A stretch of DNA of 64,000 nucleotides, from positions 1 through 64,000 of the forward strand of contig RDZH01000018.1 of NCBI GenBank assembly GCA_004293935.1, written 5' to 3'. Position 1 is the stretch's first letter. Every line of letters starts with the position of its first letter. This DNA comes from Alphaproteobacteria bacterium. Lineage in GTDB: Bacteria; Pseudomonadota; Alphaproteobacteria; Rickettsiales; UBA998. Under the pieces are notes generated by a model. It was not told the DNA's origin and did no database searches. It saw only the letters and a list, made by a program, of their open reading frames with translations. Made by a program: the position numbers and the translations under genes. This document shows positions 8,830-50,846 of this stretch, in pieces.

Positions 8830-8833
8830 ATGG

Positions 8834-8885
8834 TATAGTCGTTTTTTCGTCAAACGACTATAAATCATAGTTTTATAGTGCTATT
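8834..8885 (-). repeat. Palindromic element, short inverted copy
   Basis: TATAGTCGTT...AACGACTATA (8834-8862) is followed by AATCATAG and TTATAGTGCT. This is the module order of the copies at 143-351 and 25731-25812 read in reverse, with the spacer shortened. It lies between a terminator and the 8917 gene. Confidence 0.65.
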
Positions 8886-25730: not shown

Positions 25731-25812
25731 CTATAGTGCTTCCATTATAAATCATAGTGTTATAGTCGTTCTTTAACATAAAAAAATGAGTATTTTTTGT
25801 CAAACGACTATA
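25731..25812. repeat. Palindromic element, internally deleted copy
   Basis: Matches 194-321 of the long copy nearly base for base (CTATAGTGCTTCCATTATA, AATCATAG-GTTATAGTCGTTC, AAATGAGTA, TTTTTTGTCAAACGACTATA), except that about 45 bp of the AT-rich hairpin is missing at a shared TATA. It lies between the zinc-protease gene and the 25822 gene. Confidence 0.75.
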
Positions 25813-25821
25813 TATCCAGAA

Positions 25822-43542: not shown

Positions 43543-43626
43543 GCCCCCGTGGCGGAATGGTAGACGCTGCGGACTTAAAATCCGTTGACTTCGGTCGTGC
43601 CAGTTCAAGTCTGGCCGGGGGCACCA
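43543..43626 (+). tRNA. tRNA-Leu (anticodon TAA)
   Basis: 84 nt, class II with a variable arm (TGACTTCGGTCG region). The acceptor stem is GCCCCCG/CGGGGGC, the discriminator is A and CCA is encoded at 43624-43626. The anticodon stem is GCGGA/TCCGT with loop CTTAAAA, giving TAA for UUA codons. The T arm is GCCAG-TTCAAGT-CTGGC. A 21-bp direct repeat begins 25 bp downstream. Confidence 0.96.
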
Positions 43627-43650: not shown

Positions 43651-43671
43651 AAAGCGAAGTGCATCATGACA
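43651..43671 (+). repeat. 21-bp direct repeat, left copy
   Basis: AAAGCGAAGTGCATCATGAC followed by A is identical to 46803-46823. This copy lies between tRNA-Leu and the P450 stop codon. Together the copies bracket the three-gene P450 operon. The left copy resembles a stranded translation start: its ATGACA matches the first two codons of the old-yellow-enzyme gene. Confidence 0.8.
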
Positions 43672-43674
43672 CGA

Positions 43675-45027
43675 CTATATACGCCTATTCCATCTCACTA
43701 TCATTTTCCCCGCTGGTCGCAATGAGAATCGTGGCGAAGGCTGAGGCAATGCGGTGATGACTTCAGGTTGATAGTGCTGAAGAAGAGTCACAGCAGTAAG
43801 CATCACTTCCATCATGCCAAATGATTGCCCAATGCATAGGCGAGGTCCTGCACCAAACGGGATGTAGGCATAACGAGACGCTAGGGGGTCTGACGTAAGA
43901 AAACGATCAGGCATGAAGCGTGTTGGTTGATGAAACCAGCGAGGATCACGATGCGTCACATACGGTATCAACTGAATCAAATCCCCTGCCTTGATCGATA
44001 TATCTCCACAATAGAAGTCGTGTGTAGCCCTACGGCAGAATAAAGCGTAGGCCGCAGGATAGAGCCGCATAGTTTCTTGCAAACAGGCATACATATAGGG
44101 AAGCTGTGCCATATGCCCATAATGTATGCTCCCTTGCCCAATCACGTGATCAATTTCTTTCTGCACGCGTTCTAGTGCTTTGGGGTGATGTGCAAGCAGT
44201 AAAAGCAGCCACGTTAGGGTAGCTCCACTCGTTTCATGACCTGCAATCAGTAACGACATCACATCTTCTTCTATACTCGTCTGGTTACCTTCATGATGGG
44301 TCGTAAGTATAGAAAGTAAATCCGTATAGTTTCCATCACGTTCTTGCAGACGTGCGCTCACAATGGCACTTATTGTACCTTTCATACGTGCAATCACCTG
44401 ACGTTTTTCCTTCTTGCGGAACAACGAAAACCCGTGCGATGCAGGAAATAAGGATGTTGCTTCACGGTAGGCAATCTCTGAAAGCGCATGTACTGCATGA
44501 CCAATCACTTCCGATTGCGAACCTAATTGTTTGCCGAATAGGGTAATGCCTGCAATATCAAGTGCATGGGATGCCATGTCACGATCCAGATCACAGACAT
44601 ACACACCATCAACGCTCTTTTCCATCCAACGTTGAACCAATGCGTGTGTATGATGTATCACCATCTGTGCATAATCAGGCATCGCTTCTTGTCTAAACGC
44701 AGGCAGCACCTTTCGACGACGGATTTTCCAAGATTCCCCCTCAGCAATAAGCAGACTTTCACCATTCCATTGTCGTAATATCTGCATCAGCCGTTCAAAA
44801 CGTACAATATTGACCGCCTGTTTGGTCAGTATCTGCTCGATATGATCGGGATGAAAAAGAAACCAACAGCGATAAGGACCTAAACGCACTGGAACTGCAT
44901 CACCATAATGATGATGTAGGGATTCATAATAGCCAAGGGCGTTTCTACGAATGTGCCATAATGCATCCAATCCAAGAAGCCATGATTTGGGATGTATGAC
45001 GTGAATATCAGGCGTTCTATAATCCAT
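43675..45027 (-). CDS. Cytochrome P450
   Basis: 450-residue soluble-type P450 without a signal or membrane anchor. The oxygen-binding I-helix motif is AGHETSG at 262-268, ExxR is E318-R321, and the haem loop is FGAGPRLCIG with the thiolate Cys398. The general pattern is nearest to CYP4/CYP102-like or CYP110-like bacterial fatty-acid and terpene hydroxylases; the substrate cannot be read. Its start overlaps the upstream methyltransferase-like gene by 11 bp, so they are one operon. No ferredoxin or reductase gene is adjacent. The 3' end lies 3 bp from a direct repeat. Confidence 0.93.
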   Translation of the reverse strand: MDYRTPDIHVIHPKSWLLGLDALWHIRRNALGYYESLHHHYGDAVPVRLGPYRCWFLFHPDHIEQILTKQAVNIVRFERLMQILRQWNGESLLIAEGESWKIRRRKVLPAFRQEAMPDYAQMVIHHTHALVQRWMEKSVDGVYVCDLDRDMASHALDIAGITLFGKQLGSQSEVIGHAVHALSEIAYREATSLFPASHGFSLFRKKEKRQVIARMKGTISAIVSARLQERDGNYTDLLSILTTHHEGNQTSIEEDVMSLLIAGHETSGATLTWLLLLLAHHPKALERVQKEIDHVIGQGSIHYGHMAQLPYMYACLQETMRLYPAAYALFCRRATHDFYCGDISIKAGDLIQLIPYVTHRDPRWFHQPTRFMPDRFLTSDPLASRYAYIPFGAGPRLCIGQSFGMMEVMLTAVTLLQHYQPEVITALPQPSPRFSLRPAGKMIVRWNRRI

Positions 45028-46276
45028 CTACGTCTCCTGTATCTTTCCATCCTCGCCGTCTTATCCACTGCCACGGTAGCACCATAAGAAGCCCGAATGA
45101 ACCAATCCATGCAGTCAAAAAATTAATATGAAATAGCACGCACAAGGCAGCAGCACTCCCATCAAAAAGCAGCCCGCGATTACCATCCTTATAGGATAGA
45201 CCATGGCTGCTTTGGATTATTTCCAACCCTATTGGATGACAACGCTGCACCCATGAACGATAGCATGTATGCAATGGCACGTCTGGATTATAGGTAAGCG
45301 TTGAGACATGCTTGATCCACGGTTTCCAACGTGGCACCCAATCGGGTACGTGCTGTTTATATTCCAACCACCCCTCAGGGAAACGCACCGCAAGATCATG
45401 CCGATGATGCCATCGTACCAATCCTTGCACAAAAATAAACGCCATGACCGCAGCTAGAGCGATGAACATATTCTGCAAAAATAGACCAATGATCATCCAT
45501 GATACAGCACTACATAACTGCATCGGATTCGTAATATACGCATAGATACCACTACGTACCAAATATTTAGTTCTATCGAACGGTATGGGCGTACCTTCTC
45601 CATGAATCACAAACATTTGCACCGCACTGAGTCCAAGCACCATCCATGGAGCGAGTGCAAAGAATATAAGTGCGATAGCGCATAACGAATAGCGATCCAA
45701 CTGCCATGCACCCCCCATAGCGTGCATAATCAGTGTCGGTAATACAAAAAAAGCGAGAAAGCCAAACCCCCACGCCAATAAGGCAGCTCGTTGTGGCAAG
45801 CACACATCCTGTGCCGTCCAGCGTGCTAGGTACAGTGCAGGTATATGCACGATGCCAAAAATGATTATCACGCCCACAAACCATCCTTCTCCAGCAATGA
45901 CCAAAGGCGCAAGCGAATGAAATGTGAGTGCTTGCACTAAAATGCAACCAACCGTAAAAACCAACGGACTCAACCGTGGAAAAGCGAAAAAGATAGCAGG
46001 ACCAAATAACAGCGATCCCGCAAACCAAATATCAGCAGGCATACCAAGCAGCATAAGAGTATCGCCTCCATAATGCCACATACCCAATTCTATTGCCAAT
46101 ACATGCATGGGCAACAGCAATCCTATAGTGTACAGAAAGGAAAATAATCCAGCAATGAGCATCCGTGGATGATTATGGTACTTCCAACCAAGCAAAAGTG
46201 TTCCCAACCACGGAGCTAAAAAAAGCATGGCGCGCACGAGCATCAAGAAATCGTAGGAAAGACCAAGATTTATCAT
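45017..46276 (-). CDS. Polytopic membrane protein with isoprenylcysteine-methyltransferase-like domain
   Basis: 419 residues with about nine hydrophobic helices. The segment RSGIYAYITNP (241-251), together with EYKQHVPDWVPRWKPW (305-320), matches the two conserved AdoMet-binding blocks of isoprenylcysteine carboxyl/phospholipid methyltransferases. The N-terminal part (ELGMWHYGG near 63-71, LLGMPADIWF near 76-85) faintly resembles lycopene-cyclase-type membrane domains. The C-terminus (327-410) faintly resembles a DCC/DUF393 domain lacking its CxxC. The last two comparisons are inference. It overlaps the small membrane gene by 4 bp and the P450 by 11 bp; I infer modification of a membrane lipid or isoprenoid. 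Confidence 0.7.
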   Translation of the reverse strand: MINLGLSYDFLMLVRAMLFLAPWLGTLLLGWKYHNHPRMLIAGLFSFLYTIGLLLPMHVLAIELGMWHYGGDTLMLLGMPADIWFAGSLLFGPAIFFAFPRLSPLVFTVGCILVQALTFHSLAPLVIAGEGWFVGVIIIFGIVHIPALYLARWTAQDVCLPQRAALLAWGFGFLAFFVLPTLIMHAMGGAWQLDRYSLCAIALIFFALAPWMVLGLSAVQMFVIHGEGTPIPFDRTKYLVRSGIYAYITNPMQLCSAVSWMIIGLFLQNMFIALAAVMAFIFVQGLVRWHHRHDLAVRFPEGWLEYKQHVPDWVPRWKPWIKHVSTLTYNPDVPLHTCYRSWVQRCHPIGLEIIQSSHGLSYKDGNRGLLFDGSAAALCVLFHINFLTAWIGSFGLLMVLPWQWIRRRGWKDTGDVDGL

Positions 46277-46650
46277 GCAACCACCAACCGTTCAAGTGGA
46301 TCAGCTATATGCTGCGGCATATTCATCATGTACAGCTCAACCACAAGAAACACAACAGGAAAACCTAATGCGAGATATAGAGCGAAAGAAGGAATATAGA
46401 GCATCAATAACAAGTGCAGGATTGTACCAAAGCGCATCAGCAGCCCTTCTTTTGTGTACGTTGGTGGCATCAAAAGAAGCAACCATGCGAGACTCGCAGG
46501 GAAAACAACAATGAATGCATAAGAAAGCAGTGGGTTATCTATTCCTTGCTGCCAACTATCCATCGCCCCTATGAACCGCACGATCATTACCCATGCCAAC
46601 AGCATCACCACAACATACTTCATCTGCTTGCGTATCGCGTATCTCATCAC
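46273..46650 (-). CDS. Small membrane protein of the P450 operon
   Basis: 125 residues with about four hydrophobic helices (near 10-30, 42-62, 72-92 and 93-110) and a short polar C-terminus. I recognise no family. It is the first gene of the three-gene operon with the methyltransferase-like protein and the P450, joined by a 4-bp overlap (ATGA). It could be a subunit or an isoprenoid-handling partner of the next protein; this is inferred only from position. An in-frame ATG 24 nt in is an alternative start. Confidence 0.65.
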   Translation of the reverse strand: MMRYAIRKQMKYVVVMLLAWVMIVRFIGAMDSWQQGIDNPLLSYAFIVVFPASLAWLLLLMPPTYTKEGLLMRFGTILHLLLMLYIPSFALYLALGFPVVFLVVELYMMNMPQHIADPLERLVVA

Positions 46651-46817
46651 ATGTACTCACCAACGCCCTTGAACCTCTTAAGCTGTCTAGTTCATTTTTC
46701 TTATGGCATATCTTATAGCATATGTTATAACGGACTCAAGGAATTAAATAGCTATAATTCCTCATCAATCCAGCCCCATACGTTCATGGGACTAAACAGA
46801 AAAAAGCGAAGTGCATC
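46651..46817. other. Divergent region between the P450 operon and the OYE gene
   Basis: 167 bp with AT-rich palindromic words around 46710-46730 (GGCATATCTTATAGCATATGTTATAAC) that include TATAAC and could hold divergent promoters or an operator. The right direct-repeat copy begins at 46803 and covers the OYE start codon. Confidence 0.35.
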
Positions 46818-46823
46818 ATGACA
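46803..46823 (+). repeat. 21-bp direct repeat, right copy
   Basis: Identical to 43651-43671. It spans the ATG (46818-46820) and second codon of the old-yellow-enzyme gene. The copies are 3152 bp apart. Confidence 0.8.
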
Positions 46824-49746: not shown

Positions 49747-50142
49747 ATGGTAGATGAGCAAAAGAATAATCAAGAAGCGCAACGGACTGAAGGCGTGGAT
49801 TGGAAAGCTGTTGCAACGGCAGCGGGTGGTGGTTTTGCGGTGGGGTTTTTAGCTCAATATGGATTAATGGTAGCAGGTATGGCGCAAAAAGCCATAACAA
49901 ACAATGATGCAATCAATCGTTTTAATGATACATTAGATGCCCATTGCACGAAAGTGTTTCCCTTTCTTGTGTCTGATGCGCGTTTTTTCGTGATTGGTTC
50001 TGCGTGTGCAGCACTTGCTGTTATCCCTGCATATATGCATCAACGCTCCATTCAACAAGATACACCTTCTGGTTTTGCGGATCGCGAGGCGAAAAAAAAG
50101 GAGCAATCTGTTATGATTGCTCCTGAAACTAAGAGATTTTAG
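49747..50142 (+). CDS. Small two-helix membrane protein, orphan
   Basis: 131 residues. A charged N-terminus is followed by two hydrophobic stretches (about 24-45, ATAAGGGFAVGFLAQYGLMVAG, and 78-95, FFVIGSACAALAVIPAYM) and a polar, Lys-rich tail. I recognise no family. AGG stands 8 nt before the ATG, and a TATAAT at 49687-49692 may be its -10. Its last codons contain the intrinsic terminator of the convergent gene, which forces a Lys-rich tail read from A-rich DNA. Confidence 0.55.
   Translation: MVDEQKNNQEAQRTEGVDWKAVATAAGGGFAVGFLAQYGLMVAGMAQKAITNNDAINRFNDTLDAHCTKVFPFLVSDARFFVIGSACAALAVIPAYMHQRSIQQDTPSGFADREAKKKEQSVMIAPETKRF
50092..50123 (-). terminator. Intrinsic terminator embedded in a convergent coding region
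   Basis: On the minus strand a perfect 9-bp stem GGAGCAATC/GATTGCTCC with a 6-nt loop is followed by eight T residues. It lies inside the plus-strand gene 49747-50142 and serves the minus-strand gene ending at 50145. Confidence 0.85.
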
Positions 50143-50153
50143 TCTTAGTTTTT
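50126..50153 (+). terminator. Second hairpin at the convergent stop codons
   Basis: AAACTAAGA (50126-50134) pairs with TCTTAGTTT (50143-50151), followed by T residues. The loop contains the TAG stop of the plus gene, and the minus gene's stop is in the right arm. It can act in both directions. Confidence 0.7.
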
Positions 50154-50846
50154 AATGGTCTTCAAAAAACCAGAAGGCGGAAGTGCTATGCCAAATTTGG
50201 CATTATAATACACTTCGGCAACATCAGCAATGCTCCATGTAATCCAAGCATTCACCGATCCATTCAATGCTGAGGGCAAAAATGGAATGATCCACCCGAA
50301 TCCATGCGACACAAGCTTGCCTGCTAGTTTAGCAACCAGCTTAGCGGCAATCTTCTTGGCAGCAGTAGCTGAAATAGTCGCGTGGGCAAAAACCCCTACT
50401 TTGGGAATTGCTTTTGCAGCCATAGAGCCAACCGCAACATTAAGATTGCCAAAAATTATTGCCTGCTTAGCAGCCACATCAAGCATTGCCTCAGGCATTC
50501 CAGCCCAAAGAAGCAACACATCGACATAGTCTTGCGCATCCAATGCTCGGGCATCTAAACCATTGCGAGATGCAATAGCAGAACCCACGGAAAAACTTGC
50601 TTTTGCCATTCCTTCGAGTAAACCCACTACATCCCAAGCTATTCCCGCGATAGGAACAAACACAGAACCCGCTCCAGCTATAGCACTCAAGCCACAATTT
50701 ATGTTGCGTGCTTCAGCGACGCTCCAACCTTTTGCAAGATCGTAGATTTTTGCCACATCAAAACCTCGCTGTTCTATCAGCCAGATTAAGGTATCGCGCA
50801 CTTTGTTTTCCGACTCGCCTGTATTAGAAGCAGATGAAGTTGCCAT
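50145..50846 (-). CDS. EcsC-family-like hydrophobic protein
   Basis: 233 residues, rich in Ala, Gly and Val. After a polar N-terminus come hydrophobic, glycine-patterned helices: GAGSVFVPIAGIAWDVVGLLEG near 60-80, then KKIAAKLVAKLAGKLVSHGFGW and IPFLPSALNGSVNAWITW near 165-210. This resembles the EcsC family (PF12787), whose members have a small-residue-rich hydrophobic core and a C-terminal GGxxN-like segment; here the ALNGSVNAW segment fits. The role of EcsC proteins is poorly known. No signal peptide. A pore-forming or membrane-associated effector is an alternative reading. Confidence 0.5.
   Translation of the reverse strand: MATSSASNTGESENKVRDTLIWLIEQRGFDVAKIYDLAKGWSVAEARNINCGLSAIAGAGSVFVPIAGIAWDVVGLLEGMAKASFSVGSAIASRNGLDARALDAQDYVDVLLLWAGMPEAMLDVAAKQAIIFGNLNVAVGSMAAKAIPKVGVFAHATISATAAKKIAAKLVAKLAGKLVSHGFGWIIPFLPSALNGSVNAWITWSIADVAEVYYNAKFGIALPPSGFLKTIKN

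Follow-up and report, generated by a model that had tools for sequence, protein, structure and literature searches.

In the stretch of DNA analysed here (64,000 nucleotides, hereafter called the window), three genes encoding a cytochrome P450, a methyltransferase-like membrane protein and a small membrane protein lie between two identical 21-bp direct repeats, downstream of a tRNA-Leu(TAA) gene and upstream of a gene for an old yellow enzyme (OYE). The reading preferred here, with moderate confidence, is that this module was inserted at a tRNA-Leu hotspot in the common ancestor of the window's species and its congener, with the start of the OYE gene as the target, and that 21 bp were left on both sides. 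The whole is judged to be of a familiar type and not a novel class of mobile element: a module acquired horizontally at a tRNA hotspot, with decay through an insertion sequence (IS) afterwards. As such it would be a readable trace of how a small metabolic module came into a streamlined alphaproteobacterial genome at such a hotspot, with later decay visible as an IS deletion in the sister species. The most interesting content is the uncharacterised three-gene P450 module itself, which is conserved across classes and offers a clean target for biochemistry.

The 21-bp repeat and the genes it encloses

The sequence AAAGCGAAGTGCATCATGACA was found twice in a repeat search of the window (Table 1), in the same orientation, with 100 % identity, as the first-pass annotation had reported, and with a spacing of 3152 bp. 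It is the longest exact direct repeat within the 64-kb window. A search of the 1,729,837-base genome that tolerated as many as 3 mismatches gave no third copy; the 21-mer is not a common repeat, a possibility which the genome-wide search proposed in the first-pass annotation was to decide. No exact match to the 21-mer was found on viral contigs, and none was found in 100 shuffles of the window. The longest repeat in 100 windows simulated with an order-2 Markov model, which keeps the triplet make-up of the real window, was 14-20 bp and never 21 bp, and an exact word of at least 12 bp was common to pairs of random 80-bp stretches with a frequency of 0.0009.

Table 1 Coordinates of the features discussed, with the basis of each assignment or a remark
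Feature	Position in window	Strand	Basis or remark
tRNA-Leu (TAA)	43543..43626	+	ARAGORN; presumed insertion hotspot
Left repeat copy	43651..43671	+	putative relic of the OYE leader with its start codon
Cytochrome P450, 450 aa	43675..45027	-	Pfam PF00067, E=1.3e-79, 268.6 bits
Segment missing in G001, with a pair of IS ends instead	44921..46718	.	comparison with contigs C18 and C23
Integral membrane protein, 419 aa, with weak PEMT/isoprenylcysteine-methyltransferase-like C-terminal domain	45017..46276	-	
Small membrane protein, 125 aa, first gene of the operon, without known family	46273..46650	-	ORF and family searches
Right repeat copy	46803..46823	+	leader and start codon of OYE; 19/21 bp kept in G001
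OYE / N-ethylmaleimide-reductase-like flavin oxidoreductase, 351 aa	46818..47873	+	PF00724, E=4.7e-83

The left copy begins after a gap of 24 bp from the end of tRNA-Leu (43626) and ends 3 bp short of the P450 stop codon (outer base 43675), while the OYE start codon (46818) falls inside the right copy. The right copy thus carries the start of a gene and the left copy runs into the 3' end of P450, as had been claimed from the first reading. The DNA from tRNA-Leu to the left copy occurs nowhere else in the genome, and hence is not a dispersed element. Relatives of the OYE protein have N-termini of the form M[S/T]xLF, which makes OYE the most likely original owner of the ATG-ACA and the leader before it; the right copy would then be the native OYE leader and start, and the left copy the derived one. 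Upstream of OYE, a stretch of approximately 40 bp (46754-46797) that contains a TATAAT-like hexamer and a CCCAT/ATGGG hairpin is absent in the congener.

An extension of the left copy beyond 21 bp as a relic of OYE was considered, its ORF reading MTRLYTPI.. compared with OYE starts such as MSALFTPI (in L007). Past the left copy, 9 of 18 bases agree with the OYE of the congener, a score equalled by about 2 % of the 18-mers of the window, and a relic continuing there would be a weak lead. The sequence ACGACTATA at the 3' end of P450 was considered as a part of a dispersed hairpin element, the match being just 9 bp and taken as chance. A dispersed palindromic element, GTTATAGTCGTT..GTCAAACGACTATAA, is present in the window at 267-330, 8833-8863 and 25731-25813, at two of these sites beside CTATAGTGCTTCCATTATA. 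With 1 mismatch, AACGACTATAA has 9 occurrences, compared with 0.66 expected.

Between the repeat copies there are three overlapping minus-strand genes and nothing else. The first-pass annotation was right that the repeat encloses only these genes and that no integrase is among them: the family search of the three ORFs gave no recombinase or transposase, and the repeat search gave no terminal inverted repeats at the edges of the module. The motifs of the P450 are intact (heme-binding FGAGPRLCIG with the Cys ligand, AGHETS of the I-helix and ETMR as the ExxR motif). The 419-aa membrane protein scored 21.2 bits with PF04191, under the 25-bit cut-off, and matched NCBIfam LmtA and ICMT weakly; its structure model (pLDDT 42) was unusably poor. 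Since the gene ends overlap, and do so also in two distant relatives, the arrangement suggests one unit of transcription and translation.

The GC content of the module (45.7 %) equals that of the window (45.9 %) and the synonymous divergence of the P450 gene is no higher than that of its flanks, so that the module is not marked as foreign by composition or divergence. Judged by family membership alone, the probable role of the module is the synthesis or modification of a small lipid- or terpenoid-like molecule, through P450 oxidation and membrane methylation. No described function for the three-gene P450 module was found in the literature, which also gave nothing specific on the module or on integrase-free inserts bracketed by repeats.

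The locus in the congener and in other relatives

One congener was compared, an alphaproteobacterial MAG (record RDXO01000030, the same as L049), hereafter called G001, the genome containing the window being G000. Contig C18 of G001 contains the gene for an outer membrane protein (OMP), tRNA-Leu and P450 in the same order as in the window, and the OYE gene, which has the same leader and a product 93 % identical to that of the window, is found at the start of contig C23. The 12-mer core of the repeat, TGCATCATGACA, is present in exactly two copies per genome, at orthologous sites in G000 and G001. In the left copy of G001, 20 of the 21 bases are found in order, split by two small insertions (AAGC-aca-GAAG-ataa-TGCATCATGACA); AAGC and GAAG were placed likewise in 0.4 % of composition shuffles of that stretch. 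Because the core occupies the same two sites and the left copy of G001 retains these 20 bases, the simplest reading is that the duplication and the insertion are older than the split of the two species and that the left copy is decaying. The insertion event is accordingly dated, from these two genomes, as old and not recent.

The P450 sequences of G000 and G001 are about 96 % identical (93 % in the alignment with other relatives), with a synonymous divergence of 0.18 (0.22-0.31 in flanking genes) and a dN/dS of about 0.09. From the synonymous divergence and the dN/dS, the P450 is most likely a long-inherited gene maintained by selection, and not a recent arrival in the window's species. Counted by sites, the synonymous differences were 45.5 of 282 in P450 and about 24 % in the flanking genes (five pooled, OMP excluded). 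The lower divergence of P450 could be a sign that the lineages exchanged it later.

In G001, 1.8 kb of the module is gone, including the small membrane protein gene, the methyltransferase gene and the first codons of P450. Contig C18 ends inside the 5' end of P450, in the IS end TGTCCATCCCCGTCAAGTTGG, and contig C23 starts with the opposite, matching end of that IS, where a frame, judged by its translation, resembles the terminal part of an IS3/IS481-type transposase. A search of G001 (85 % completeness, IS copies unassembled) gave no methyltransferase, and it is possible that the missing genes were displaced to an unbinned contig. The IS with the ends TGTCCATCCCCGTCARGTTGG lies at the ends of many contigs in the two MAGs (12 matches in G000 and 28 in G001), which explains much of their fragmentation. 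Further downstream in G000, two ORFs without a known family (131 and 233 aa; 49747-50846) follow the two-partner secretion transporter, and in G001 a related small ORF is found instead between OYE and this transporter.

The OMP gene precedes tRNA-Leu(TAA) in G001, G004, G007, G008 and G009, and the DNA 3' of the tRNA is unrelated in each genome of the family in which it was readable: G006 has phage terminase and DNA methylase genes there, G007 has a serine recombinase, G004 has polysaccharide genes and G009 has a beta-helix protein. With the OMP side conserved and the downstream DNA different every time, the 3' side of tRNA-Leu(TAA) looks like an insertion hotspot. The frame of the serine recombinase in G007 (L064:5039-6685) runs antisense across the tRNA gene. 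A second copy of the tRNA-Leu 3' end was not found in the window. OYE was not found next to tRNA-Leu in the relatives of the order whose OYE flanks were read; it is located elsewhere in the one other member of the family having OYE, and in G006 it is followed by tRNA-Phe. The empty site predicted by the first-pass annotation, a single 21-bp copy with tRNA-Leu directly before OYE, was thus not found: the sole congener has P450 at the same place, and no member of the family examined has tRNA-Leu adjacent to OYE. With a single congener in the comparison, there was little chance of finding such a site.

A scan of contigs with the P450 sequence gave L049 (G001), L050 and L051, and a scan with the methyltransferase gave no match. 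The same three genes, with the same order, strand and overlaps, were found in Micavibrio sp. UBA1672 (L050) and in a gammaproteobacterial Granulosicoccaceae MAG (L051) and in no others. The identities with these were 45-62 % over the module genes, being 45-46 % for the small membrane protein, 61 % for the methyltransferase-like protein and, in an alignment, 55-58 % for P450. In L050 the module is part of a longer cluster with a tRNA 3' fragment on one side and a tyrosine integrase on the other; this context is suggestive only, because no second copy of the tRNA fragment is present on that contig. The 21-bp repeat is absent from both L050 and L051, and hence is a feature of the host locus, not of the module's ends.

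No full-length homologue of the methyltransferase was found in 54 relatives of the order, and G000 was the sole match both in a sample of 385 genomes of the class and in a sample of 398 genomes of the phylum. The methyltransferase had no homologue on viral contigs and distant matches only on plasmids, the P450 matches listed for plasmids had approximately 30-32 % identity (all <60 %), and the small membrane protein had no plasmid matches. This distribution supports the view of the module as a discrete, rare, patchy and horizontally distributed unit.

Origin of the arrangement

In the preferred reading, a module of approximately 3.13 kb would have entered just past tRNA-Leu(TAA), where the 5' end of OYE, the probable target gene, would have lain, in the ancestor of the G000 species and G001. 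A crossover within the approximately 21 bp spanning the ribosome-binding region and the first two codons of OYE would have placed this stretch on both sides, the right copy preserving OYE intact and the left copy becoming a non-functional relic that abuts the 3' end of P450. This presupposes that OYE formerly adjoined tRNA-Leu and that the module came as a circular or island-borne fragment, the 21 bp having been used for strand exchange either by a recombinase which has since been lost or by short-homology recombination. These two routes are inseparable, as there is no recombinase, no inverted repeat and no repeat of the tRNA end. The proposal that a cassette was inserted at the OYE start, made from the first reading, is in keeping with the discrete module, the repeat belonging to the host locus and the variable tRNA flank, and lacks the empty site. 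Its further part, that the target was duplicated, holds in so far as one host stretch is present on both sides, but not as a duplication of the transposon type: an att core or the integration of a circle by short homology explains the arrangement at least equally well. The least likely mechanism is target duplication by a classical transposon, since 21 bp exceeds the usual lengths of such duplications and there are neither terminal inverted repeats nor a recombinase.

As a special case of such an insertion, the 21-bp repeat could be an att core and the module the remnant of a larger integrase island, from which the recombinase and other cargo have been deleted. Typical att cores are of this length, the Micavibrio copy has a tyrosine integrase on one side and the 3' fragment of a tRNA on the other, and the tRNA-Leu flank bears phage genes (G006) or a serine recombinase (G007) in members of the family; with the tRNA 3' end outside the repeat and without a copy in the window, and with the operon alone between the repeats in G000, this remains a tentative suggestion. 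It is also conceivable, but unlikely, that the locus is a mosaic in which OYE and the P450 operon came separately and the left 21 bp were templated later from the OYE start through short homology. The left flank differs by several indels between the G000 and G001 species, which marks the spot as prone to rearrangement, and relatives are without the tRNA-Leu–OYE adjacency; against this, the left copy of G001, whose 20 ordered bases are interrupted by two small insertions, points to an ancestral full-length copy that both species shared. An integrase-free mobile cassette, spreading among distant proteobacteria by an undescribed route with a target duplication of about 21 bp, is very improbable, and a chance similarity of the two copies is hardly credible at all. 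Some repeat must be the longest in a scan of a whole window, and one of the 100 simulations gave 20 bp, but the repeat is unique in the genome, lies exactly at the edges of the module and is seen at both of these sites in another species.

Comparison with known systems

The insertion preferred here resembles the target-site duplications of transposons in that one host sequence is found on either side of the insert. Usual transposon target duplications are shorter than 21 bp, and the locus differs from them in this length and in having no terminal inverted repeats and no transposase. With tRNA-associated genomic islands having att repeats it shares a foreign module 3' of a tRNA, surrounded by a short perfect direct repeat, and a tRNA flank that holds phage and recombinase genes in members of the family; it is unlike them in that a gap of 24 bp separates the repeat from the tRNA, whose 3' end is not part of it, and in having no integrase inside. 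Illegitimate or homology-facilitated integration through short homology is alike in needing no mobility gene, and the integration of a circle can leave a short host repeat; this route leaves no diagnostic enzyme behind. The SMP-PEMT-P450 operon of L050 and L051 has no 21-bp repeat and neither OYE nor tRNA-Leu nearby, and in L050 it is accompanied by extra DCC, DUF2269, DUF4166 and saccharopine-dehydrogenase-like genes and the integrase, but it is like the module of the window in its three genes, their order and strand, and their overlapping starts.
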